Made by a program: the position numbers and the translations under genes
Part shown: positions 1,655 to 33,719 of the stretch, piece by piece
Position numbering within the stretch: position 1 is the first letter of the stretch
Layout of the letters: each line of letters begins with the position of its first letter
Source: a virus
Virus record (IMG/VR): IMGVR_UViG_3300036985_005342
Span: 1-64,000 of that record
DNA length: 64,000 nucleotides
Strand: one strand, 5' to 3'
The notes under the pieces: generated by a model
What the model was told of the DNA's origin: nothing
Database searches by the model: none
Seen by the model: only the letters and a program-made list of their open reading frames with translations

Positions 1655-2760
1655 AAACACCAACACGCAAACCCCGCCAACGTATCAACGAAAAGCTCGG
1701 AGACTACAACGCCCGCCTCCGGGAATGGATAAAGGAAAACAACGCCTCCACCTACGCCATCCACCACGCAAGGCGCGGCGGAGAGCTATCCGAAGATGAA
1801 CAGGATCGCAACATCGAAGCCATCCGCGCCCGGATTGCCGACGAGCCGGATCTCCCGGTCAACCTCGCCCCATCCTACAAGCCCCACAAGCACGCCGAGG
1901 ACGAGCGCATGGAGGACTATGAGGCAGGGGACACCCCACAAGCCGCCCCCTTGGAGCTGGGGCACCTCCAGCACCAGCTCGCCGCCCTCACCGTGCGCGT
2001 GGTTGAGCTGGAAAAGCTCGTCGCCGCCTCGGTGGCCTACCGCTCGCTCAAACCCTCCGCAAAGGCCAAGGTGGACAAGATCGACCCCTCCGTCGGTGCC
2101 GCCTTCAAGGACAAGCGCACCCTCCTCGCCCTCACGGTCTTCGAGCATGTGGCCGAACTGCCCCGGAAGAAGAAAGTCGCCGCCAACTTCCCCAAGCTAC
2201 TTTTGGGCGAATACGTCGATTCCAGCGTGGACGAAACGGTCAACACCGTCCGCGTGATCCCATACACTGCCCTCCTGCACCGGCTCGCCGCCAAAAAGGA
2301 TTTCCGCCCGTCGCTGGATGAGACCTCCTCGCAGGACAATGCGCGCCGCGCCATCGAGAAGTCCGGCTTGATCGTCACCACGATGCACGAGGCCGGTATC
2401 CGGCAAGGCTCCGCTCTGCTCGTGGTCATGGATCGCACGGAAGCCGAGGCTTGTGGGCTGGTGCGAAAGAGCCGCGATGTGGAGATCCAGCCCGAGGACG
2501 AGCCGGAGATCCAGCCCGCCCCCACACCCAAGCAAAGCAACCCTAGATTCACCGAGTGGAACGAGCCTGAGCCAACTACTGAGGATGTAGTAGATGAACC
2601 AACTACTACGGATGTAGTAGGCGACGAAGAGATCGACACCGAGCCGTGGGAAGAAGAAGAAGATGACGGCTTCAACGACGACCCCATCGCCCTTTTTCAC
2701 GAGTCCGGGGAGCAGCAGAAAGCCGCGAAATCCTCGAAGGCTATTGACCTTTTCGCGTAA
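1651..2760 (+). CDS. hypothetical protein with acidic disordered tail
   Basis: 369 residues. A basic N-terminus is followed by a helical segment with a coiled-coil-like heptad (about 98-125) and a central globular region (about 130-275). The C-terminal tail is very acidic and looks disordered. The tail contains two copies of a TTxDVV peptide that are encoded by palindromes at 2574-2595 and 2601-2622. No known family recognised. The chosen ATG overlaps the previous stop; an in-frame extension upstream is only a readthrough of the preceding gene in another frame. Its position at the head of the early operon and its basic and acidic ends suggest a nucleic-acid-associated role, by inference only. 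Confidence 0.75.
   Translation: MKTPTRKPRQRINEKLGDYNARLREWIKENNASTYAIHHARRGGELSEDEQDRNIEAIRARIADEPDLPVNLAPSYKPHKHAEDERMEDYEAGDTPQAAPLELGHLQHQLAALTVRVVELEKLVAASVAYRSLKPSAKAKVDKIDPSVGAAFKDKRTLLALTVFEHVAELPRKKKVAANFPKLLLGEYVDSSVDETVNTVRVIPYTALLHRLAAKKDFRPSLDETSSQDNARRAIEKSGLIVTTMHEAGIRQGSALLVVMDRTEAEACGLVRKSRDVEIQPEDEPEIQPAPTPKQSNPRFTEWNEPEPTTEDVVDEPTTTDVVGDEEIDTEPWEEEEDDGFNDDPIALFHESGEQQKAAKSSKAIDLFA
2574..2622. promoter_or_regulatory. Paired 22-bp palindromes, sites 2 and 3 of 8
   Basis: Site 2 is 2574-2595 (arms AACTACTG/TAGTAGAT). Site 3 is 2601-2622 (arms AACTACTA/TAGTAGGC). Their centres are 27 bp apart. Both lie inside the acidic-tail codons of the upstream-operon protein and read there as TTEDVVD and TTTDVVG. 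Confidence 0.6.
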
Positions 2761-2783
2761 TCGAAAAATAAATTAAAATAAAG

Positions 2784-2812
2784 TTGACGAGTTCGTAGGC
2801 GTGCCCTACAAG
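2784..2812 (+). promoter_or_regulatory. sigma70-like promoter TTGACG-N17-TACAAG
   Basis: A -35 box TTGACG (2784-2789), a 17-bp spacer and a -10 box TACAAG (2807-2812). It sits in the gap after the 369-residue gene and points at the gene starting at 2911. The -35 matches 5 of 6 consensus positions and the -10 matches 3-4 of 6. Confidence 0.5.
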
Positions 2813-2910
2813 TAGCCCATCAACCGAGCGCACCGCGATGTCAATGCCGCGCTCTACGACGACAGCCCTTCAGGATGGGCACCCTCTCTCAATCGTAACT
2901 CAACGGAAAA

Positions 2911-3546
2911 ATGAAAACAACAATCGCAATCAACTTAGGCCACACCTTCGTGGCAATCGAAGCCGAACTCGTCGGGATCAAAGGATTAACCCTTGCCCTC
3001 CACAAAACCGTCGGCAAGTCCGGCTGGTCTATCTCAGATCCTCGAACTGGGTTTGCCGTTCACAGCGGGGCACCGAGTAAGGAAAGCGCACTCCACGAGG
3101 CCGCAGTCAAGATTGGCAAAGCTGGCGTGCAGGCTGTGAAAAACTCGATCCTCGCCCAGCCCAAGGCACCGGCAACCAACACCCTGAAACATCACTGCCC
3201 CGTGGTGAAGCCGAAGGCCGTGAAAGCCAACATCCCGGCCATTGTGGAAGCTATCCACAACACCGTGCCCCTCACCGAGCGCGAGCAGGCGGCAGTCGTC
3301 ACCGCCCTGAACAGCCGCACCGGCCAGCTCAAGGCAAAATCCCCCTCCGCTTTCGGCACCCCGGACGAGCAGCTTGCCTGCGCGGCTTGGCAAGGTCTCC
3401 AGCCCAACGGCTACAAAATCGGCACCCTCTCGTGCATCTGCCTGCGTGGCGAAGCTCGTGAGCTATTCGAGAAACTCTCGAAAGTCCGCTGGCCTGCCGC
3501 CCTCGACAAAGACAAGCTCGCGCTTTTGGCTTTGGGGGCGTGGTAA
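2911..3546 (+). CDS. hypothetical early protein
   Basis: 211 residues, alpha/beta-like, with no transmembrane segment. The N-terminal part contains a WSISDPRTGFAV segment (about 35-46). Then come a lysine- and alanine-rich linker (about 75-105) and a helical C-terminal part (residues about 110-211). No catalytic motif or family recognised. The start follows CAACGGAAAA and has no clear Shine-Dalgarno. It is the first gene behind the promoter at 2784-2812. Confidence 0.7.
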   Translation: MKTTIAINLGHTFVAIEAELVGIKGLTLALHKTVGKSGWSISDPRTGFAVHSGAPSKESALHEAAVKIGKAGVQAVKNSILAQPKAPATNTLKHHCPVVKPKAVKANIPAIVEAIHNTVPLTEREQAAVVTALNSRTGQLKAKSPSAFGTPDEQLACAAWQGLQPNGYKIGTLSCICLRGEARELFEKLSKVRWPAALDKDKLALLALGAW

Positions 3547-21895: not shown

Positions 21896-22093
21896 ATGTT
21901 TGGCTACTCCGACGAATTTCTAGGCACAGTTACGCCGCCTCTTTCCCGCGACAAGGCGGTTGTGGTCGCCGCGATCCTGAAGCATTCGATCAGCTACCCG
22001 CACCATGAGGAGATCAAGGTGTCGGTCGATTCGGGGAACCGGATGCTGTGGCTGAACGGGATTCTCTATACGTTCAAGGAGCTGGGGTTTTAG
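21896..22093 (+). CDS. small hypothetical protein
   Basis: 65 residues, predicted soluble. No family recognised. It is the last gene of the rightward module and overlaps the giant leftward gene's stop by 4 bp. The ATG was chosen at 21896; upstream in-frame residues belong to the HNH gene in another frame. Confidence 0.55.
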   Translation: MFGYSDEFLGTVTPPLSRDKAVVVAAILKHSISYPHHEEIKVSVDSGNRMLWLNGILYTFKELGF

Positions 22094-25000
22094 AACCTGA
22101 TCCAGTTGTATTCAGGCTCTTTCTTCTCGGTCTTTTCCCAAGGTGTCCGCACACCCACACCGAAGAACAGGGCTGTGGCCAGCACTGAGCCGTCACGGAC
22201 TCCATGCGTCTCGAAGATGTTCACCAGATCCTCGACGATGATCGGTTCCAAAAGTTGACGGGTGAAGCTGGTTGGGGTCATTGCGATGTCGCCAAAATGC
22301 TTCTGGGTGATTGTGTCGAGGATCATCGCCATGTTGATGTTCTCGCGGTTCCTCACGAAGTCGTAGAGAGAATCGCGGAAGTCCTGCTTGCCGAAACCGA
22401 TGGAGCCTTCCCCACGGAGCGGGATGACCTCTCCCTTGGAGTTCAGCTTGTAGCCCATGATGCCCTGCGCCAGCAGGTTGATGTAGGGGCGCATACCGCC
22501 GCCGAGGTCGATCATGGTGCCCTTGTAACTGATCCCGCCGAACTTGCCGGATGTGGGGTTCCACACGATGTCTTCCTCCTCATCGTCCGGCGTGATGGCA
22601 CGCACGATGCCCACGATGACCGTGCCGAGGATAGCGCGGCCTACAATGGCCTTTCCATAAACATCGGCAGCGACGGTTGCCCGGATCTTCATCGTGCCGT
22701 CAAAACTCGCTCTGCGCGTCCAGATCGGCTCAAGGGCATTCATCTTGGCGCGGCTGACCGCCCACCGAGCCGAGATCGTCACCGTGTTGGCAAGGGCGAG
22801 GCCAGCATCGAGGCTGGGATTTTTGAGCGAACCACGGCCAGTCGCGTTCATCACGGCGTTGCCGATGATTGCAAGCTCATCCTTCGAGGGGTTGCCTTCG
22901 TCGCGGATTCCCTTCTCGATGAGCGTGTCGGCCATCTGGGCGCGGGTGAGGTTCGTGACGATGCGGTTGAAGCGTTCCACACCGAGGCCAAGCTCAGTGA
23001 CCCAGCGGAGGGGGATGAACTTCGGCAGCTTCTTGTTGATGGTCTCCATCAGCTCGGGGTCGATTGCATCGGCCTCCTGCATTCTGTCGAGATCGGCGAA
23101 GGGACTCATAAACCGGAGATCCATTCGCTTATCGTAAACGGAGTTGGGACGGTCGATGACATCGTTGTAGTAAGCGATCTCCTTGTCGCGGCTGAACATG
23201 CCGGAGAAAGCCTTCGCAAAGGTTGTGGTGACTTTGATCGGATTGGCCCAAGCGCGGAGCGTGTAGAAGTAGGCTTGGCGCATACCAATACCAAGCTCGA
23301 AGCCAAGCGTGGTGATCTTGCGGAGCTTGAATGCCCCGCCGACGTAGTGCCAGAAACGCTGGCTCGCGCTCATGTTAGCGATGGCATATTTCCGACCTTC
23401 CTCCAACCATTCGGCCTTTGCTTTCGCCTCGTCGATCTTGGTCTGGGTGAGTCGGGAATCCTCTTTGGTGTCCCGCTTCACGGCCTTCGCGAAGTCGCCA
23501 GCGGCCAAACGCCTCTCGTAATTTTCCTTGCGTTTCTTCGACGCGGCGATCATGCGCTGGATGCGCTTCTCTTCAGGGCTGGTAGGCTTGAGCGCATCTT
23601 TCTTGAGCTGGTCGAGGGTTGCACGCAGGCTAACCACAGTGGCCTTGAGGTTGCGAACTGCCGGGTCGGTGGACTCGGGCTTTTTGGCACGCTTCGAGAA
23701 GTCGCGCTTGGCGATCCGTGCGTTGAGGTCGGCGATGGTCTTGTTGAGCTGCACGATGGCACGCCTGCGGGCGATCACTTCTGGCGGGGTCAGGATGCGA
23801 CGATCCTTCTGGATCTCGCGCACGGTGTCGCGGAGACGGTCACGGGTAGCCATCATCTCTTTCAACACGCTGTTGAGGGTCGGAGCCACGCCCTTAGCTG
23901 TGGGTGGGTAGGTGCCATTTTTGATGAAATACTCGAAGCGTTCGATGGACTTATTAACCGAATCGTAAAGTCGATTTGTTGCGATCTCAGCGGCGGTCTT
24001 CTTGGGGTTGCGGGCTTCCTGCGCGATGCGCTTGGCCTCACGGAGGGATTCCAGACGCTCGCGCTTCGCCTTTAGCTCAGGGCTGTCCAGCTTGACCTTC
24101 GTAGGCTTGTCGAGGATCTCACCGCGCATCTCCGCTTCCAGCAGGTTGATCTGGCGGTCGAGCATCTTGGAAGCGCGTTTGATCTGCGCTTCGAGGGAGA
24201 TTTTCTTGCTGTCGATGCCGAAGATCGCCCTGTATTCTACCAGCATTTCATCACGACGTTTTTTAAGATCGTCGAGGATTGGATCTGTCACCGGATCACG
24301 CTTAGGGCGGTCGATGCGGATACGTTCATCAATCGCATATTTCATGTCCCTGAGTTGATTCTCAAGTTGCCGCTTGATAGCGTCACGCGCACCTGCAAGG
24401 CGGGTCTTCTTATCTTGCTCCTCGGTGTAGTTCATCCCTGCGTCAATCATCGCCTGCTTGATCTGCTTCATCAATGAGCGGACGGGCGATGTGGTTGGGT
24501 CACGAGGAAGTCCCGTCTTCTTGGGGAAGAAACCTTTGGCGATGTCAAGGAGTTGTGCCCCGAGACGTTCAACAACTTTGAGTTCGCGGATGTCAACTTT
24601 GAGTTGCTCCTGAGAGACATTCTTGACCCGCCCATAATTTGTGAACGCAACCACAACCTCTTCGCGGGTGAGGTTTGGGTAATCGTTCTGGAGGAGCTTG
24701 GTGACAGCGTCCAGCACTGCTTCACCTTTGAGACCTTGGCGCATGAAGCCGAGGGCCATATTATAGACCATCTTTTCACTGATACCCTTACTTGGGTCGA
24801 TGAGCGAGGAAAGCTCCTGCGGGGTCTTCTGGCGTGCCGTCGAGGCCAACTTCGCCAGCTTGTCCTTGGCCAATCCGAAGACTGTTTCGGCCTGATCGCG
24901 AAACTCCTCACCGAACTCACTCACGAGCTTCTCGGTGAACGCTTCAATGGTCTTGGCATTACCGGCGAGGTATTCCGTGCCCACGTCCGAGAGCGCGTCG

Positions 25001-28000
25001 AGGATCTCGACTTGGGTAGATTCGGAGTCTTGGAAGAGAGTATCAGCTTCCCAAACTACCTTACTGCCATTGTAATTATCAGTCGTGATGGATGTATAGC
25101 CAACACTTTCGGCATGTGTGATAAGTGCTTTTCTTTGAGACGGCGTGAGTGTGTTTTTACTTTCACCAAAATCGACGTAGAGATTATTACCATCAACCAC
25201 AACTCTTGCGAAGCCTGATTGTAAAGCAACTTGGAGAGCTTTGTTGATGTCTTGACTATTGCCTTTTTCTTTCAAAGCAATCTGCGCTTTGTATGCGTGG
25301 GTTTCATCAGAAGCCAACTCCAAGAAATTACCGCTTCGATCAAGTAAAGCAGCGACTTTCTTTTTTGGGGTTTCGGGAAGCTGACTCAACCGCGTCACCC
25401 CCACCCCCATCGCCCGCAGACGATCACGCGCCGACGTGGCGACAGCAGCGGCTTTCTCGACCAGCACGCCACGAGGTTTAGTGGGCTTCCTCTCCTTCGC
25501 CACATCTTTTTCTTTTTTGGAGATAATGGCGGCAGCTTCCTCACGATTATACTTGTCCTCAAGCTCCTTCATCAGACGCTCACGCTCCTTGATGAGTTCG
25601 AGGATCTTCTTGGATTGCTTCTCAGTGTCGCGCATTTCTGCCGGGGTGAGCGGGTCTTTCGCCTGCCCCGGTTTCTTCCCGGTGTTTTTCCAGATCGCAC
25701 GGCGGCGGAGCATCGCATCCACGCTGTAAACTTCGTTGGCCACAAGCTTCATCGCCTGCAAGGCCAGACCGGCGCGGGAGCCTTGGAGCTGGGTGATGTT
25801 GACGAGGTCTTGGAAGTCGGCGAACAGGGCTTCCTGAAGCGTCTCGAATGCCTTCCGCTTCTGCGTCTCACCGGGATCAAGCTTCGTGATCTTGTTGTCG
25901 AGATCCTTGAGTGCCTTCTGAATCTCGAATCCGTGAATGGCGAGCAGCGCGACCTCGACCTTGTTGGTGCCCCTGTTGTCGCCCATCAGATCCAGCACAA
26001 GCTCTTGGCCGACAAGCGCGGACTCATCTCCCTTATCACGCTTCGCCAATCGAGCATACGCCTCATCAAGAGACTCCTCATCGGTCATGCGGACAACCAT
26101 CCCTTGCCGCTCGGGGATACCGTAACGCCTACGGGCAGCGTCAAGGTCTTCACGCTTCACGCCGAAGGGGAGCGGTGCCGGGATTTTCCGTGCTGGGATC
26201 TTGCGTTTGGGCGCGGGCTGTGGTTTGGCTTTCGTTTCGGCTTTGGGCTTCGGTGCCTGACGCTTGATGTCAACGGGGAGAACAATAGGCTTCTTACCTT
26301 CGGCTTCCAGCTTTGCTCCTCGTGAAAGGAGGTCGTTGAAAATCTTCTCAATGTTCGGCGGGATGTCGATGTCAACGCTGCTGCCTTTGATGCCCTTGTA
26401 GATGTTGAGCATGATCTCGGCGATACGTGCAAACGCACGGTCAACCGATTCCACACCCGTCTTCACACCGTTGATAACAAAACGCTCAAAGCCTCGGGCG
26501 ATATATTCACGCTTCTTGCGCCAGTCATCGCCGACGTTCTCTTTGGCCCACGCTTCAAGCGCATCGGCTTTTTCACCTTCACCGATCTCACGGAGGAAAT
26601 CTTCGATGGCGTGACCGGCCTCGTGAATCCCTGTTGTGGTGTCCGCTTTGCCCTCGATCAGCCCGAGGACTGTGTTGCTGACGTTCTGCGCTGCCGCTAC
26701 GGCCTTGGGGGTGTAGGTGCCTTTGGGTCCTTCAGTGTCTTGGAAGAGGATGGACCGGGATTCTGGATTAAACCGCTGCGAGAGCGGGATCACGTTGCCT
26801 TGCTCGTCGTAGGTGACGGGGTCGGCGGATTTGATGTTTTCCGGGGAGAAGACAGCAAAGGATGTAATCACCCCATTACCACTTTCACTTTCGTAGTATC
26901 CGTCGTAGCCAAGGTCTTTCAGGCTTTGCTGGACTCTCGCGTCCTCAAATACCCCATAATCTGCTTGGTTGATTTCCTGTTTGGAAATGCCGGTTTCCTT
27001 AGCAAGTAATTCAACTTGCTTGGTGTCCTTGGGATCAAAGTATCTCCCTTTAGTGAGCAGGTTGAGGACGATGGGTTCTGTGGATTCGTAAGGCATCTGA
27101 TCGCCTTCACGATCCACTATGTCTCGAACATTTGCCGCTGCTGCATTTGCGAAATCCTCTGCAATTTCTTTGTCTGCGGTGAGGTGCGCTGCAACACCAC
27201 GGTAGCCTTTGGGGACAGTGAATTTATACGCTGTTCCGTGATACCCTCGAATGATGAACCCCGCAGCCCTCGCCGCCTCATCCACCATCCGCTGCGCCAT
27301 CTCCATATCCCCCGCCTCGACGGCGGCGAGATAGGCTTGGTCATCTACACCAACTTCTGTATCTTGGAAAAGAGTCCCTTGCTCTCCGCCAGCGGCACGT
27401 CCCTCTTGAGTCCGCGCACCAGTTCCTTTGCCGCTTCGTCCGTTTCCGCGTCCTCCCCCGGAACGTAGCCCATCAGATTGATTCCCGCTATCTTCGACAG
27501 AGTAAGTGGATGTCCTGTTCCAAGAAGTGCCACTATCCCCGAGACCAAGTTCGGGTTGTTGATACCATGAGGGGAAAGAATATCCTCCACCTGCTTCGTA
27601 AGCTCTTTGCCTGATTGTTTCATACGATTCCTTTGTTCTTCCGCGTGAGAAATTATTCCACATTTCACGGAGCTGGTCAACTTTTCCCGTATTCCGTTTG
27701 AAAGCCGCCGGGAAGATGTCGCGGATGGCTTCCCATGTGACGCTCTGCATCTCGGAAGGCTTGACCCCGCGCTTCTTGGCGGCAAGGCGATAGGCTTCGG
27801 TGATGAAGGCGTAGGTTCCACGATAGCCGTCCGTAGTGATCCCGCCGAAGTTATCGGTAACTTCTTTGGCCGCACCGGACAGCGGCATCATATAGACCAC
27901 AGCGACGGCGTGGGTGTCGCTCGTCACGGTCACGTCCGAGTCAGGGTTGATGATGTTGTTGTAGAAACTGCGGATCTTGTGGGCGTGACCGAGTTCCTTG

Positions 28001-31000
28001 GATATGTTGTCGAGCGACGGATTCTCAAGCATGGAAACCGCCGAGGCCGTCATGTGGACCGTGCCCCAAGCGATTTTGGTGGGTGAACCGTCCTTGTTGA
28101 TGTGGTCTTTCCCGAAACGCCCGTCGGGGGTAATCATCGCATAGGATCTGGGATTGTAGGTCTCATCGTAAAGGCGGATGAAAAAAGCTTTATCGAGGAT
28201 ACCGAGATCCTCGAACTTGCGCCCCGTCAGTTCCTTGAGACGCTGCCCATGCTCGAAGAGTTCTTCGCGGACACCGTCAATGATGAGATACTTCTTGCCC
28301 TTGGCCTGCTCCTTCTGTGCCGCGTCCATCTTGGCGGCGGCGGCTTGCATCTCGGGGCCAAACACATCGGTCTTGCGGTTTTTGCCTGTCCAGATGTCTA
28401 GCACGCGCTCGGCGAGAGATACATTCTGGAACCAGTCTTTCTGGGGCGACAAAGCGGCGATCACACCGGCGACAGACTCGGTGGAAACGGCATACTGTTC
28501 AGACCACATGTTAGCGATCCTGTTGGCCCCCTTATACCACTTCTTCGACTCGGTGCGGATGTTCTCAGGCACACTGTCATACACGAAGAGAATGTTATCC
28601 GTCATCTGCTTGAGGATTTTCTTACCGATCTCCTCAATGCTCAGGTTATCCAAGCTGCCCGCACGGAAGACGTGATGGCTCATAAGGCGTTTAACAATCT
28701 TCGTAAACGCCGCCTCGTTGGCCTTGAGCTTGCGGTAGGAAAGATCGCTCGCCGGAGCCTTGTCCGTGCCTTGTTTCGCAGGGATCTCCGACTGGGGTTG
28801 TGGCGTGTGGGTCTCAGGAAGCTGTTCGAGCGTATCCATCCCCACCACACGAGCGGCCACACGATCCACAGGCTTGCGCTTGATGTCATCCTGCATCGGC
28901 GAGGCGTTGGTGCTGGAAGGGAGTGCTGCACGACGACCATTTACGTTGCGGCGAAGATCGGACAGCATGGTCAGGCGGCGGTTGTCGGCACCCCCCGTCA
29001 GACGGCGAAGTGTGGTATCATCGAGTTTCTCGGTGACAGCCATCATGTCGCTCGGACTGACACGCGCCAGCACGTCCACAATCTCACGAGCGGAAAGCTT
29101 GCTCTTCTGGATGTTGCGGACAACCATGTTTCGCTGCTCCTTCGAGAGAGAGCTTGGGACAGTCCCAGCGGTGCGCTCAACACCTTGGAACAGCTCACCC
29201 TGCACAAGGCTGGGCTGGGTCGTTGGAGCCTCCTGCCCCGGCAAACTGGCCGGACGGGTGCCAGCGGCAGCAAACACCAACAGTGCGGCGTTCACATCGT
29301 TCGGGTTCTCGATGACCGCTCTGGCGATGTCCTCGATAGGGGCGTTGCGGAGGTCTTTTTTGTCCTCAGTCTTGTCCACCGTAACTGCTTCAGCCTTAGG
29401 TTGTTGCGCTGGTTTTGGGGAGGGCTTTGTCCCTACTTCTTGACCTTCACCTTCCCGCTGTGCAGCTCCTTTTTGAGCTTGGCCTTCTGCTGCGGGTTGA
29501 GCGGGCTGTTTTTGCTCAGGAGCAGGCCGACCTGTTTTTTCGATTTTTCTTTCATTGGTTGTTGGGGTTGTGAGTTGTGGTGTGGCGGGTTTTTGCGCGG
29601 AAGGTTGCGCGGGATTTTCATCAACCAACGCCTTGTCCTGCGCCTCCATAGCGTCGTAGTCAACTTCCGGGGTGTAGATCATCGTCTCGCCATCTTCCTG
29701 CAACTCAAAACCCTGTTTTGAATACCAGTTGATGAGCGTAGGCTTCGACATCTCATCCGAAGGTTCAACCGTGAGTGAGATCGGTAACTGCTTCTCATCG
29801 GCCACACGCTTCAAATCGGTGATAGCCGCTGTGGCACGACCCTTTCTTTGCTGCGACTTGTCAGTGGTGATCCCGAGAAGTTGGATACCGGATTTGTTCT
29901 CTTCCACGCGAAGGTCAACGCCGTTGGTTTTTGCAGCAGTGGCTACCGCCGCAACCCCTCCCGCCTCTGGAGAGGGCGCGGTCGGCACAGCCGCAGTCGC
30001 GGTGGGTGTGGTGGGTGCAGGGACCACAACCGGCTCACTAGCAGCACCCGGCTGCTGAGATTCTTTGGCGAAGACAATGGCTTTGACCTTCTTGACAAAG
30101 CTGGGGGCCATACCTTTCCAGTTCTTGTCGAAGTCCTCTTCGGTCCAATCGAGAACCTCTTCGGCGGCACCAAGTTCTTCGAGTTGCTTTGCTTTCGCAG
30201 CGCGGGCCGGATCTACTGCCGGTGTGGTTACTGGAGGCGTAGTATTTTCCACTTTGGCTTTCTCACCCACAACCTTCACCGGCTTCAGATCAAACCCATA
30301 GCGATCAGCCACAGCCTTGTGATCCATGTTGTCCCCAACGTTCGCTTCGAGGAAGTCGAGTTCCTCCTGCTCCTCCTTGGTGAGTTCTTGCGGGCGATCT
30401 GAAAAATTGACAGCCTCCCCCGGCATTGGCTCACGACCTTCTTTTTTGCGAAGAAGATCGGACCGTCTCTTGGAGGCCGCTATTTCAAGTCCCCTGTTAG
30501 AAATGAGTTTCAGCTCCACACCCCACTCCCCGGCAAGTTCTTCCGGCGCGGCCTCGGCCAAGGTCTTCTTCTCCTCGGGGTCCTCGGTCAGCTCGATCTG
30601 CGCGGCTCTTTCGCGTTCAATTTCTGCCAAGCTAACTGGGCCTGATGTCGGGAAAGCCCTTCCCGCTGTTTCAGCTTCAGGAAGGTTTTCTTGGGTGGCA
30701 CGGGCGGTGTATTCTTCATCGGATAGGTCATGGAGTTCTTCGGTAGTCTTGTCGCGTGTGGAAAGGTTTTTAACGTCGCCAACGAGAGTGATTGTCCCTT
30801 TTGTTCCAGCAATACTGCCGGAGGCAAAAGCAGTGGCGATGATTGTATCGCCGATGGCTTTGCGGACCTGCTCGTCCGTCATGTCGGGATTGAGCTGCTG
30901 CTGGACGTGGACAGCGTCAAGGGCTGTGATGAGGCTCTCCTCGAAAGCTTCCGAGATCGGGGCGAGCGCAAAGTTGTCAGCAGCTCGCAGCACAGCGGCA

Positions 31001-32523
31001 GAAGCGGATTTGGCGAAGGCTTCCCGTGTGGCTTTTGACGCAAGGGCCTTGCCCATATCTTCCACACCTTTCAGCCCAATCATGCTCATCCCTGTGGTGA
31101 CTCCGAACTCGCTCAAGAAAGACTTAGCGGCAAGTTCCCCAGCACGCGCACGAATGGCAGGGTCGTCGGACTGGGATGCACGCTCCCAAGTGTCCAACGC
31201 CTGTTCACCGCCGTAGATTGCTGCCGTAGGCGCGACAGTGAGACCGGCCTTGACTCCGCCTAGAACAGCGGCTCCAACCTTGCCAGCGCGGGCTATGCGC
31301 TCGGCCTTGATGAGGTTCCCCGCACCACCGGTTACGGCGGTGAGAGCTACCGACTCCACAACGGAAGCCGCACCTTGACCGATACTCGCAGCATCTGTTC
31401 CGAAGATCCGAACCTTGTCCTGCTGGATCTTGTCGGAGAGGGCGTTGATACCGTCAATGCGCTTGGCCTCGTCTTCCGCGACTTTCTTGAACTCGCCCGC
31501 GACGGCTCCGATAAAGGGGTCTTCTGTGGTTTTTTGTTTGGCCCACATTACATCCCCAACTCTACCAAGAGCGTAAGGCGCAACCCCCGAAAGAGCCTGA
31601 GCCGTCTTCGACTTGTTCGTGGCATCAACAATCTTGCGGTAGTTCTCGTTGATGTCGTCGCCGAGACCAAGCTCCTTTGCAAGCTCGGGGAAGTTCTGCT
31701 TGGCGGTTTGCACTACGTTCTCTTTGAAGAGGGCCACACGCTGCGGAGCCTCGTCCTTCGCCTTGGCTTTCGCCTGATCGGGAAGATTGGACTTGTCCAC
31801 AATGGCTTCGATCTCATCAGTGTTCTTGACAAGCGCACTGTCCTTGAAGTGAAGAGTTCCGAAGGCATCACGGGAGACATCGCCCTCATACTTGTTGAGG
31901 CGATGGCGCATGACATCATCGACTTCCTCGGGAGCGAGGTTGAAGTCCTTGGAGACAGTGTCGCGGAGCTTTTCGTAGCGGACCTTGTCCTCGGCAGCTT
32001 TCTTGGAGAAGGCTCCGAACGTGACCCCATCAGCCGCAACCGTGGCTGCGCCCTTGAGACCGCCTTCTCCACCGAAGTAGCCGCTGTCCGAAGCGTAGCG
32101 GTCGAGTGCCTTCCACGTCGGCTCCATCTCTTTCGCAACCTCCGGCTTGAACAGGGAGAAGGTCTTGTCGAGCTGCTGGCGTTTGGCTTCGAGTTCAGCC
32201 TTGCGTTGGCCGATCATTTGCTCGCGCTGCTGTGGTGATTCCCACCCGCCGTCAGCGTCGAGGTTGTTGACCACAAGCTGAGTCTCGGCCTGATCGCGCT
32301 GGAACTCCAAGGCACGCTTGGAAAGGGGGTCGGCTGAAGCAAGTGCCGCTGTGGATTCCAACGCCCTGCGCGAAGCCTGCGCCTGCGACTCACCCCACTT
32401 ATCGCCGGGGTTCTCGCGTTGATAGGCGTTCCAATACTTGTCGTTCAGCGCAAGCTTTTCTTCGGCGGAGGCGTTTGCGAAAAATGGGTCCTTGATCGCG
32501 TCAGAGTATTTCGGAAGAGGCAT
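22090..32523 (-). CDS. giant polyvalent internal virion protein
   Basis: 3477 residues from ATG 32523. It is the last gene of the late strand. Segments, by approximate residue: glycine/alanine-rich possible membrane-active stretches (380-560); GNAT acetyltransferase-like with QQRKGRATAAI (about 880-960); a helical region with VTVTSDTHAVAV, resembling the DNA-glycosylase HhH-GPD signature (1270-1640); ADP-ribosyltransferase-like with GYHGTAYKF (1730-1900); zincin-like with HEAGH (about 1960-2080); long coiled coil (2500-3040); and a C-terminal domain like the polyvalent-protein-associated domains (about 3040-3477). A recurring LFQ(D/G)xE motif lies near residues 1111, 1718, 1926 and 2496. It is probably injected with the genome. 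Enzymatic activities are inferred from motifs. Confidence 0.8.
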   Translation of the reverse strand: MPLPKYSDAIKDPFFANASAEEKLALNDKYWNAYQRENPGDKWGESQAQASRRALESTAALASADPLSKRALEFQRDQAETQLVVNNLDADGGWESPQQREQMIGQRKAELEAKRQQLDKTFSLFKPEVAKEMEPTWKALDRYASDSGYFGGEGGLKGAATVAADGVTFGAFSKKAAEDKVRYEKLRDTVSKDFNLAPEEVDDVMRHRLNKYEGDVSRDAFGTLHFKDSALVKNTDEIEAIVDKSNLPDQAKAKAKDEAPQRVALFKENVVQTAKQNFPELAKELGLGDDINENYRKIVDATNKSKTAQALSGVAPYALGRVGDVMWAKQKTTEDPFIGAVAGEFKKVAEDEAKRIDGINALSDKIQQDKVRIFGTDAASIGQGAASVVESVALTAVTGGAGNLIKAERIARAGKVGAAVLGGVKAGLTVAPTAAIYGGEQALDTWERASQSDDPAIRARAGELAAKSFLSEFGVTTGMSMIGLKGVEDMGKALASKATREAFAKSASAAVLRAADNFALAPISEAFEESLITALDAVHVQQQLNPDMTDEQVRKAIGDTIIATAFASGSIAGTKGTITLVGDVKNLSTRDKTTEELHDLSDEEYTARATQENLPEAETAGRAFPTSGPVSLAEIERERAAQIELTEDPEEKKTLAEAAPEELAGEWGVELKLISNRGLEIAASKRRSDLLRKKEGREPMPGEAVNFSDRPQELTKEEQEELDFLEANVGDNMDHKAVADRYGFDLKPVKVVGEKAKVENTTPPVTTPAVDPARAAKAKQLEELGAAEEVLDWTEEDFDKNWKGMAPSFVKKVKAIVFAKESQQPGAASEPVVVPAPTTPTATAAVPTAPSPEAGGVAAVATAAKTNGVDLRVEENKSGIQLLGITTDKSQQRKGRATAAITDLKRVADEKQLPISLTVEPSDEMSKPTLINWYSKQGFELQEDGETMIYTPEVDYDAMEAQDKALVDENPAQPSAQKPATPQLTTPTTNERKIEKTGRPAPEQKQPAQPAAEGQAQKGAAQREGEGQEVGTKPSPKPAQQPKAEAVTVDKTEDKKDLRNAPIEDIARAVIENPNDVNAALLVFAAAGTRPASLPGQEAPTTQPSLVQGELFQGVERTAGTVPSSLSKEQRNMVVRNIQKSKLSAREIVDVLARVSPSDMMAVTEKLDDTTLRRLTGGADNRRLTMLSDLRRNVNGRRAALPSSTNASPMQDDIKRKPVDRVAARVVGMDTLEQLPETHTPQPQSEIPAKQGTDKAPASDLSYRKLKANEAAFTKIVKRLMSHHVFRAGSLDNLSIEEIGKKILKQMTDNILFVYDSVPENIRTESKKWYKGANRIANMWSEQYAVSTESVAGVIAALSPQKDWFQNVSLAERVLDIWTGKNRKTDVFGPEMQAAAAKMDAAQKEQAKGKKYLIIDGVREELFEHGQRLKELTGRKFEDLGILDKAFFIRLYDETYNPRSYAMITPDGRFGKDHINKDGSPTKIAWGTVHMTASAVSMLENPSLDNISKELGHAHKIRSFYNNIINPDSDVTVTSDTHAVAVVYMMPLSGAAKEVTDNFGGITTDGYRGTYAFITEAYRLAAKKRGVKPSEMQSVTWEAIRDIFPAAFKRNTGKVDQLREMWNNFSRGRTKESYETIRQRAYEAGGGYSFPSWYQQPELGLGDSGTSWNRTSTYSVEDSGNQSDGLRSGGGRGNGRSGKGTGARTQEGRAAGGEQGTLFQDTEVGVDDQAYLAAVEAGDMEMAQRMVDEAARAAGFIIRGYHGTAYKFTVPKGYRGVAAHLTADKEIAEDFANAAAANVRDIVDREGDQMPYESTEPIVLNLLTKGRYFDPKDTKQVELLAKETGISKQEINQADYGVFEDARVQQSLKDLGYDGYYESESGNGVITSFAVFSPENIKSADPVTYDEQGNVIPLSQRFNPESRSILFQDTEGPKGTYTPKAVAAAQNVSNTVLGLIEGKADTTTGIHEAGHAIEDFLREIGEGEKADALEAWAKENVGDDWRKKREYIARGFERFVINGVKTGVESVDRAFARIAEIMLNIYKGIKGSSVDIDIPPNIEKIFNDLLSRGAKLEAEGKKPIVLPVDIKRQAPKPKAETKAKPQPAPKRKIPARKIPAPLPFGVKREDLDAARRRYGIPERQGMVVRMTDEESLDEAYARLAKRDKGDESALVGQELVLDLMGDNRGTNKVEVALLAIHGFEIQKALKDLDNKITKLDPGETQKRKAFETLQEALFADFQDLVNITQLQGSRAGLALQAMKLVANEVYSVDAMLRRRAIWKNTGKKPGQAKDPLTPAEMRDTEKQSKKILELIKERERLMKELEDKYNREEAAAIISKKEKDVAKERKPTKPRGVLVEKAAAVATSARDRLRAMGVGVTRLSQLPETPKKKVAALLDRSGNFLELASDETHAYKAQIALKEKGNSQDINKALQVALQSGFARVVVDGNNLYVDFGESKNTLTPSQRKALITHAESVGYTSITTDNYNGSKVVWEADTLFQDSESTQVEILDALSDVGTEYLAGNAKTIEAFTEKLVSEFGEEFRDQAETVFGLAKDKLAKLASTARQKTPQELSSLIDPSKGISEKMVYNMALGFMRQGLKGEAVLDAVTKLLQNDYPNLTREEVVVAFTNYGRVKNVSQEQLKVDIRELKVVERLGAQLLDIAKGFFPKKTGLPRDPTTSPVRSLMKQIKQAMIDAGMNYTEEQDKKTRLAGARDAIKRQLENQLRDMKYAIDERIRIDRPKRDPVTDPILDDLKKRRDEMLVEYRAIFGIDSKKISLEAQIKRASKMLDRQINLLEAEMRGEILDKPTKVKLDSPELKAKRERLESLREAKRIAQEARNPKKTAAEIATNRLYDSVNKSIERFEYFIKNGTYPPTAKGVAPTLNSVLKEMMATRDRLRDTVREIQKDRRILTPPEVIARRRAIVQLNKTIADLNARIAKRDFSKRAKKPESTDPAVRNLKATVVSLRATLDQLKKDALKPTSPEEKRIQRMIAASKKRKENYERRLAAGDFAKAVKRDTKEDSRLTQTKIDEAKAKAEWLEEGRKYAIANMSASQRFWHYVGGAFKLRKITTLGFELGIGMRQAYFYTLRAWANPIKVTTTFAKAFSGMFSRDKEIAYYNDVIDRPNSVYDKRMDLRFMSPFADLDRMQEADAIDPELMETINKKLPKFIPLRWVTELGLGVERFNRIVTNLTRAQMADTLIEKGIRDEGNPSKDELAIIGNAVMNATGRGSLKNPSLDAGLALANTVTISARWAVSRAKMNALEPIWTRRASFDGTMKIRATVAADVYGKAIVGRAILGTVIVGIVRAITPDDEEEDIVWNPTSGKFGGISYKGTMIDLGGGMRPYINLLAQGIMGYKLNSKGEVIPLRGEGSIGFGKQDFRDSLYDFVRNRENINMAMILDTITQKHFGDIAMTPTSFTRQLLEPIIVEDLVNIFETHGVRDGSVLATALFFGVGVRTPWEKTEKKEPEYNWIRF

Positions 32524-32531
32524 GAGTGTTT

Positions 32532-33719
32532 TTACCGCAATTCGGGAACATTCCAAGGACTATTTGAAGGGGGTGTGGTCGTCGATCCAGTCATCCCGAA
32601 CTTCTTCTGCGCGTAATTCCATACGCGTTTACGTGCAGCTTTTCCAGCCGGACTGAGGCCGGGAACCTTGTTGACATACTCATTTTCTTCCATGTTGGAA
32701 GCAGATGTCAGCTCGTTTGACACCTTATCTTTTTCGTAAAGTTTGGCTTCTTCAACTTGCTGAGATGTTGGATTCTTTCCAACGGGAGGAGGGAAGAAGG
32801 TCTTGTTGTCAAACAGTCCCAATGTTTCTTTTTCCTCTGCTGTGGTCGAAGGTGCCTTTGGCGCATCAGGTTTCGCAGTAAGGCGCATCTCCTCATCCTT
32901 CAGCTCTTGGCTTCTGACTTCAGCGTTGACCCGCGCCTCGCCTTGGAGAGCAGGGTCTTTCAAGTCCATTTCCACTCTTGCACGCTCCTCGCGAGTTTTA
33001 CGAAGATTGTCGGGTGCCGGAGTTTCCGCAGGACTGAGCATATCAGCGGAGGACGGAACCTGCCGGGGCAATCTTGGGTTTTGATCTTCCACATCAGCTA
33101 TGATGTTTTTAGACCGAGTATCGGCGGCATTATCTTTGACACCGAACAGGTTACGGGCACCTATCATATTACCCTCATCGCGCTTGAGTTTTTCGTTCGC
33201 CACGATCTCAGGATTGTTAATTGGCGTTCCTGTTCCTGTTCCTGTTCCTGTTCCTGTTCCTGTCCCATCACCATACCGCTCACCGAACCGCAGTAAATCC
33301 TCCGCACGCTTACGCTTTTCCTCTTCAGCCGCAGCTTGCTCAGACTCAAATTGAGACTCAAGCAGTCCCATTTTCCGGCTCTGGATGTCCCGAGAAAAAG
33401 CATCATTGGCAGAAATTCTTGATTGTGTCTGCTGATCCAAACCATACCGGCGATCCGACTCGAAGGCGGAGCGGTTGAAACGCATGGCATCTTCCATGTC
33501 CTGCTGCGTGTTCTCGGCCCTGCGCTGCATCAGGTTTGTCTCCTGCTGACGCATGGCGAAAAGGTCCCGTTCCTGTGCGAGCTGCTTGTCGGCCATCGAA
33601 CGCCCGAGCGAAATCGCTTGGTTCATAATGCTGCTAATTGCCTCGGGACCGGCACGCAGAAGACCCTCAATGGAGTTCGAGCCATTGTTCTGAAACATCT
33701 GGATTGGTGATAGAGCCAT
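32532..33719 (-). CDS. internal virion-like protein with Gly-Thr linker
   Basis: 395 residues. A strongly helical, glutamine-rich coiled-coil N-terminal half (about 30-150) is followed by a GTGTGTGT linker (about 152-164, from six GTTCCT units at 33226-33267) and a charged C-terminal half. It lies just upstream of the giant protein and could be a co-injected core protein. No family recognised. Confidence 0.65.
   Translation of the reverse strand: MALSPIQMFQNNGSNSIEGLLRAGPEAISSIMNQAISLGRSMADKQLAQERDLFAMRQQETNLMQRRAENTQQDMEDAMRFNRSAFESDRRYGLDQQTQSRISANDAFSRDIQSRKMGLLESQFESEQAAAEEEKRKRAEDLLRFGERYGDGTGTGTGTGTGTGTPINNPEIVANEKLKRDEGNMIGARNLFGVKDNAADTRSKNIIADVEDQNPRLPRQVPSSADMLSPAETPAPDNLRKTREERARVEMDLKDPALQGEARVNAEVRSQELKDEEMRLTAKPDAPKAPSTTAEEKETLGLFDNKTFFPPPVGKNPTSQQVEEAKLYEKDKVSNELTSASNMEENEYVNKVPGLSPAGKAARKRVWNYAQKKFGMTGSTTTPPSNSPWNVPELR
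33226..33267. repeat. GTTCCT tandem hexamer microsatellite
   Basis: Six perfect GTTCCT units plus a degenerate seventh. It encodes the Gly-Thr linker of the leftward gene. Copy-number changes keep the reading frame. Confidence 0.85.

Follow-up and report, generated by a model that had tools for sequence, protein, structure and literature searches.

The question raised by this locus is whether a giant phage protein can carry both its own cleavage sites and the protease that reads them. The window analysed here, the whole 64,000-nucleotide stretch of a viral contig (IMG/VR record IMGVR_UViG_3300036985_005342, positions 1 to 64,000), encodes a polyvalent protein of 3488 residues. A short peptide, LFQ[DG]xE, is repeated at the borders between its modules, and a zincin-like metalloprotease module is embedded in the same chain. 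In other giant phage proteins, comparable words recur at module borders, and across hundreds of related phage proteins the word follows the subtype of the zincin. On this comparative evidence, the window protein is probably a phage polyprotein, in which LFQ[DG]xE would mark the processing sites and the embedded zincin would cut its own chain or a sister copy.

Four copies of LFQ[DG]xE in one chain

The giant protein and its border motifs are located as follows.

22090–32556, minus strand: giant polyvalent protein, 3488 residues (TTG start at 32556; alternative ATG at 32523)
29176–29193, minus strand: border motif 1, LFQGVE, residues 1122–1127, between the N-terminal part and the DUF7178 module (context GELFQGVE; LFQ codons 29185–29193)
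27355–27372, minus strand: border motif 2, LFQDTE, residues 1729–1734, between the DUF7178 and ADP-ribosyltransferase (ART) modules (context GTLFQDTE; LFQ codons 27364–27372)
26731–26748, minus strand: border motif 3, LFQDTE, residues 1937–1942, between the ART module and the zincin (context SILFQDTE; LFQ codons 26740–26748)
25021–25038, minus strand: border motif 4, LFQDSE, residues 2507–2512, before the C-terminal part (context DTLFQDSE; LFQ codons 25030–25038)

Exactly four LFQ tripeptides occur in the giant protein, and all four continue as [DG]xE. In 5000 shuffles of the protein, LFQ[DG]xE is seen once in 18 and twice in none. LFQ is absent from the 10,074 residues of 23 other window proteins, which contain a single unrelated VFQDT. 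The initial annotation had placed the motifs at the same bases, and a recount in the open reading frame (ORF) agrees; its residue numbers (1111, 1718, 1926, and 2496) were counted from the ATG at 32523, and the sites given here (1122, 1729, 1937, and 2507) are counted from the TTG at 32556.

Synonymous codons vary between the four copies (CTG/CTT/CTC; GAT/GAC; GAA/GAG), the codon identity is without excess (p = 0.19), and the flanking sequence is random; the window repeats are thus a repeated peptide and not a recent DNA duplication. A recent duplication of the linkers is rejected on these grounds for the window protein, though not for all families.

The modules separated by these motifs are listed below. 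The zincin types are regular-expression classes of our own, type A being defined as 'ADxST..HExxH'.

29677–29949, minus strand: GNAT-like stretch, residues ~870–960, judged by eye from the sequence, with no Pfam match
27487–28620, minus strand: DUF7178 module, residues ~1313–1690 (Pfam PF23802, E = 5.8e-32)
26767–27351, minus strand: ART-PolyVal module with a helical leader and DPVTYDEQGNVIPLSQRF tail, residues ~1736–1930 (Pfam PF18760 and alignment)
26302–26664, minus strand: type-A zincin module, residues ~1965–2085 (ADTTTGIHEAGH plus a downstream E)
26611–26625, minus strand: HEAGH zinc-binding/catalytic motif, residues 1978–1982

Several unrelated effector-type modules are therefore found in one phage chain (DUF7178, a weak ART-PolyVal, and a zincin assigned by alignment), as in polyvalent proteins. 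The arrangement described in the initial annotation is borne out: sites 1729 and 1937 flank the ART-PolyVal match (residues 1768–1911; E = 5e-5, under the Pfam gathering cut-off), and site 1937, ahead of the zincin module, lies 41 residues before the HEAGH of the same chain. The window zincin carries every invariant residue (A, D, H, E, H, and E) of a 38-sequence type-A alignment, including HExxH and the downstream glutamate ligand (the invariant E at position 95 of the aligned segment), and border motif 3 falls in the Phi-x-Q column common to the 37 other aligned proteins. In the AlphaFold2 (AF2) model of residues 1923–2090, the predicted local distance difference test score (pLDDT) is 80, with a core above 90, and border motif 3 is located in a linker where the block pLDDT is about 41–52. 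A profile of the zincin gives weak matches alone among PDB sequences, to FtsH (0.045) and lethal factor (0.23).

Border words in other giant proteins

Viral contigs supplied the comparison set, about 90 giant polyvalent proteins after removal of redundancy, with ORFs defined stop to stop and some cut by contig ends. Many of them hold a "private" word repeated at module borders, common within the protein and different between proteins. A motif without recurrence in relatives would have counted against the initial annotation; LFQ or equivalent words do recur at module borders of very distant giants. With the DUF7178/ART part as the query, a distant giant protein with four LFQ was obtained from Rhodobacteraceae phage LS06 (OP947163; L005), in which the tripeptides stand after the zincin, directly before the ART, before DUF7178, and after DUF7178, and a methylase module is also adjoined. 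Contigs with a homologous ART module carry other words, NYSI occupying the same two borders, so the pattern is wider than LFQ. Scanning with the ART leader (76 loci, repeated words counted de novo) yields [VI]SFS[IA], [VIL][RK]FDD, RFMPE, DIRRMPE, TFST, SFS[MI], YSLP, AASLD, DIRYA[KR]G, PDIR[FY]QPS, and NYSVR. A second scan with the module FYSxL has a like outcome, with SRRA, LFSS, SFSIG, FSIDD, and KRE, and includes one protein (L250) with four LFQ. Bacterial genome contigs scanned with the ART module alone give no match. The border-word pattern is common, not universal; a universal rule is rejected, as most DUF7178-anchored giants and several phage proteins have no repeated word.

The sequences compared here share ancestry, so that permutation and Fisher values overstate the evidence and the p-values are indicative. 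With this caution, the words on the two sides of the ART resemble each other within proteins (21.9, vs 14.2 between proteins; n = 33, 0/20,000 permutations), and the match is retained in a larger set (n = 47, 0/20,000). A second border pair, where the 'ITPxM..GQP' module ends and the FYSxL module starts, likewise matches within the protein (n = 39, 0/20,000). Copies are placed close to the ends of homology blocks (61/77 vs 22.8 ± 4.2), and with the ART borders excluded, 27 of 48 copies are at most 10 residues from a block end (vs 8.3 ± 2.6). The words change in concert between the close relatives of the NYS group, with NYSI[GAS] in L017, L018, and L038–L040 and, in L024, YS[VI]R in each of the five copies.

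Such repeats could also be scars of module shuffling, in which modules are gained at short shared sequences and the border word is copied along with them. Codon identity among copies is in excess in 6 of 16 proteins (LS06, L057, L062, L068, L070, and L089), where recent copying contributes, and the adjacent copies in L057 and L054 could be deleted modules. In the other 10 proteins there is no excess at p < 0.05 (L024 borderline, 0.05), and in the window protein, L088, L066, L026, L058, and L018, the synonymous sites differ freely around a fixed peptide with random flanks. Scars also would not predict the zincin subtype in new data, and the shuffling account is very unlikely.

Three side observations concern these linkers and modules. 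In the six proteins named above, the border words have codons alike beyond expectation though the flanks are random; recent copying may lie behind this, or a DNA-level constraint on 9–12 bases. Two to four border words are clustered per linker, with no module between them, at residues 1214–1265 of L057 and 2347–2368 of L054. In Mycobacterium phage Pio gp110 (L257) and in L255, modules that are fused in the giants occur as separate genes, which is consistent with modules working on their own.

Border word and zincin subtype

All 13 type-A zincin proteins (the window protein, L222, L248, L250, L256, and the FEQAA group) have a Q word, compared with 5 of 56 others, and the LFQ-bearing LS06, not anchored in this table, also fits the rule. 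RFMPE goes with 'NPLKPL.AHE' zincins, and SRRA goes with 'KMKGAGSLAHEW' zincins. The motif similarity correlates with the zincin similarity when the adjacent module is controlled (partial Mantel r = 0.40, n = 39, and r = 0.32, n = 29; 0/2000 each).

The association was first noticed in those data, and it was therefore tested on fresh sequences. A broad type-A alignment lacked a searchable stretch, and a narrower alignment served as the query; 80 loci, out of 191 reported, were fetched by the zincin alone, giving 65 new non-redundant proteins. In the linker before the type-A zincin, Phi-x-Q is present in 62 of the 65 (vs 26.4 ± 4.0 in random windows), compared with 17 of 65 before other zincins. 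The ITP-end counts in this set include false anchors, and the reading of the set depends on the borders ahead of the zincin and at the ART tail. At the latter, NI[LY]xQ is found in 11/11 type-A cases and in 1/5 others, and in the DUF7178 set Phi-x-Q is found in 4/4 type-A and 2/17 other proteins. Cultured phages found by the type-A zincin have a Phi-x-Q border word in six of six cases, as follows (the slash marks the supposed bond).

Bordetella BPP-1 Bbp10: FYQ/GGG
Pseudomonas AF: LNQ/ND
Cobetia Carin1: YNQ/GG
Xanthomonas CP2: LNQ/GG
Vibrio 1.021.A: LRQ/EK
Caulobacter Jess A: LAQ/GE

The Carin1 protein is gp32, with the words TLNQ, VLFQ, and AYNQ, and that of Jess A is gp039c, where LLAQ/GE precedes the zincin; Microcystis phage Mel-JY33 is a further cultured phage with a type-A zincin.

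The nearest site is often 20–45 residues before HExxH, and Phi-x-Q might be the N-terminal edge of the type-A domain, the other repeats being chance. Such an account is hardly credible, given the Q motif at other borders (the ART tail in 11/11; window residues 1122, 1729, and 2507) and the variable distance of the pre-zincin site, which lies in a low-confidence linker. The type-C set (52 new proteins; 217 loci reported by the scan) gives a double dissociation: in type-C zincin proteins FSR is enriched (2.8-fold) and LFQ is depleted (0.7-fold), compared with 1.4-fold and 2.2-fold, respectively, in type-A proteins.

Two side observations belong to these zincins. BPP-1 bbp10 (L419, 4206–10364) is annotated as a crystallin-motif protein and goes by the name of a lysin elsewhere; FYQ/GGG precedes its type-A zincin, and from its sequence Bbp10 resembles a polyvalent polyprotein. 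At L017 ~701, L018 ~898, L024 ~841, L038 ~814, and L035 ~1172, a conserved zincin-like stretch has EExxH for HExxH, in a group that keeps its border words; the stretch may have an altered metal site or act as a non-catalytic reader.

Several observations, beside the shared ancestry given above, weigh against self-processing by the zincin. With the RFMPE clan cut to one member, the Mantel correlation in the FYS set loses its significance (n = 20, r = 0.12, p = 0.13). In the large type-A set, Q alone is shared, and the repetition of exact tripeptides is weak (p = 0.02). Motifs are borne by proteins without a recognisable zincin (L089, L068, and L209) and by proteins with the EExxH variant (the NYS group and L035), and most DUF7178-anchored giants have zincins yet no detectable repeated word. 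Foldseek gives no significant match for either of two models and so does not confirm the zincin fold. No obvious LFQ-like motif exists near residue 700 of P1 DdrB, and N4 vRNAP, which has HExxH, is packaged unprocessed according to the available text of Iyer et al. 2017 (PMC5512222).

Some of these points would suit a different protease (of phage maturation, another embedded peptidase, or the host), with the zincin acting elsewhere. Private motifs persist where HExxH is not recognisable, and the annotation of P1 points to a host protease taking part in head processing. Such a protease is unlikely, as the motif class tracks the zincin subtype with a double dissociation, and the sites of a general maturation protease would be expected in further window proteins, where the scan finds no LFQ. 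The motifs could also be uncut docking or assembly peptides, bound by a partner (an internal virion protein or the zincin module itself) with a role in folding, packaging, or threading the chain. A peptide-binding partner would also yield private, co-varying short motifs, the EExxH variants that keep their motifs are consistent with a non-catalytic reader, and the unprocessed N4 vRNAP points the same way. Docking is decidedly unlikely: cutting calls for one linker copy at each border, as observed, and docking for fewer, and the type-A alignment shows no change in the catalytic H, E, H, and E.

Proposed processing, genomic setting and known systems

Of the initial annotation's proposal, a self-processing polyprotein with LFQ-type sites, the part concerning processing at the motifs is supported by the recurrence of the words and by their following the zincin subtype on fresh data. 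The resemblance to a 3C-type LFQ/G junction is mere likeness. A 3C-like protease as the cutter is rejected, no 3C-like or chymotrypsin-like family being found when the giant protein and ten of its neighbours are scanned with Pfam, nor in PHROGs scans. What we infer is the cutting itself, its agent, the bond, the timing, and whether the action is in cis or in trans. LFQ[DG]xE would mark processing sites in flexible linkers between modules, and the zincin of the same chain would recognise Phi-x-Q and cut there, probably on the far side of the Q, either within its own chain or in another copy. About five products would be generated: 1–1124, 1125–1731 (DUF7178), 1732–1939 (ART), 1940–2509 (zincin), and 2510–3488. 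Cutting might take place in the host, in keeping with the release after injection of the initial annotation, or already in the capsid, ahead of ejection.

What is new here is the set of site words, each private to its protein and matched to the zincin type. It is about as likely as not that polyproteins in which one zincin frees every module at a subtype-specific code (Phi-x-Q, FSR, RFMPE, SRRA, and others) are produced by a large class of tailed phages, code and protease co-evolving. If so, modules could be shuffled while processing stays orthogonal to the systems of other phages, which bears on the delivery of many unrelated enzymes by giant injected proteins. With a site code that can be read from sequence, processing could be tested directly in cultured phages and product boundaries predicted in thousands of giant phage proteins, and a protease family with short, mutually distinct recognition sites could also result.

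The giant-protein gene sits at the end of a presumed structural operon. The presumed structural genes upstream (window 32532–54539) have no PHROGs family match and almost nothing in Pfam, unlike the window replication genes, which do match families, pointing to a very divergent phage. One IMG/VR contig (3300037493_003170) is a nearly identical copy (99.98% over 18,464 bp) and therefore gives no evolutionary information. With the C-terminal part as the query, one near-identical contig is the sole close relative, and none is found among phage records.

In RNA viruses with 3C/NIa-type proteases, an embedded protease is combined with repeated junction peptides, including LFQ/G and Q/G. In the window protein, repeated candidate junction peptides stand at module borders, and comparative evidence suggests that the peptide is matched to the embedded protease. 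The RNA-virus protease is chymotrypsin-like, compared with a metalloprotease in a DNA phage protein here, and the LFQ resemblance would amount to no more than convergence. Phage prohead maturation proteases (T4 gp21, phiKZ gp175) also process phage proteins at short motifs. They cut several head proteins, whereas LFQ is confined to one giant among the window proteins scanned, the same site being absent (0 LFQ in the 10,074 residues) from the others.

Polyvalent proteins were defined by Iyer et al. 2017 (PMC5512222), where, in the available text, zincins are the commonest domain and are sorted into 12 clades. P1 DdrB, a polyvalent protein with a C-terminal zincin, is described there as processed to about 76 kDa; it differs from the window protein in its single cut and its zincin sequence. 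Self-processing by zincins was proposed in the same paper and likened to RNA-virus polyproteins, and no sites were named: the text does not contain 'LFQ', no site motif appears in the passages covered, and no description of a site code was found in the open-access literature searched. Like the proteins of that account, the window protein is a multi-module phage protein with ART-PolyVal and a zincin; it differs in supplying candidate sites, a repeated border word private to the protein and matched to the zincin subtype.

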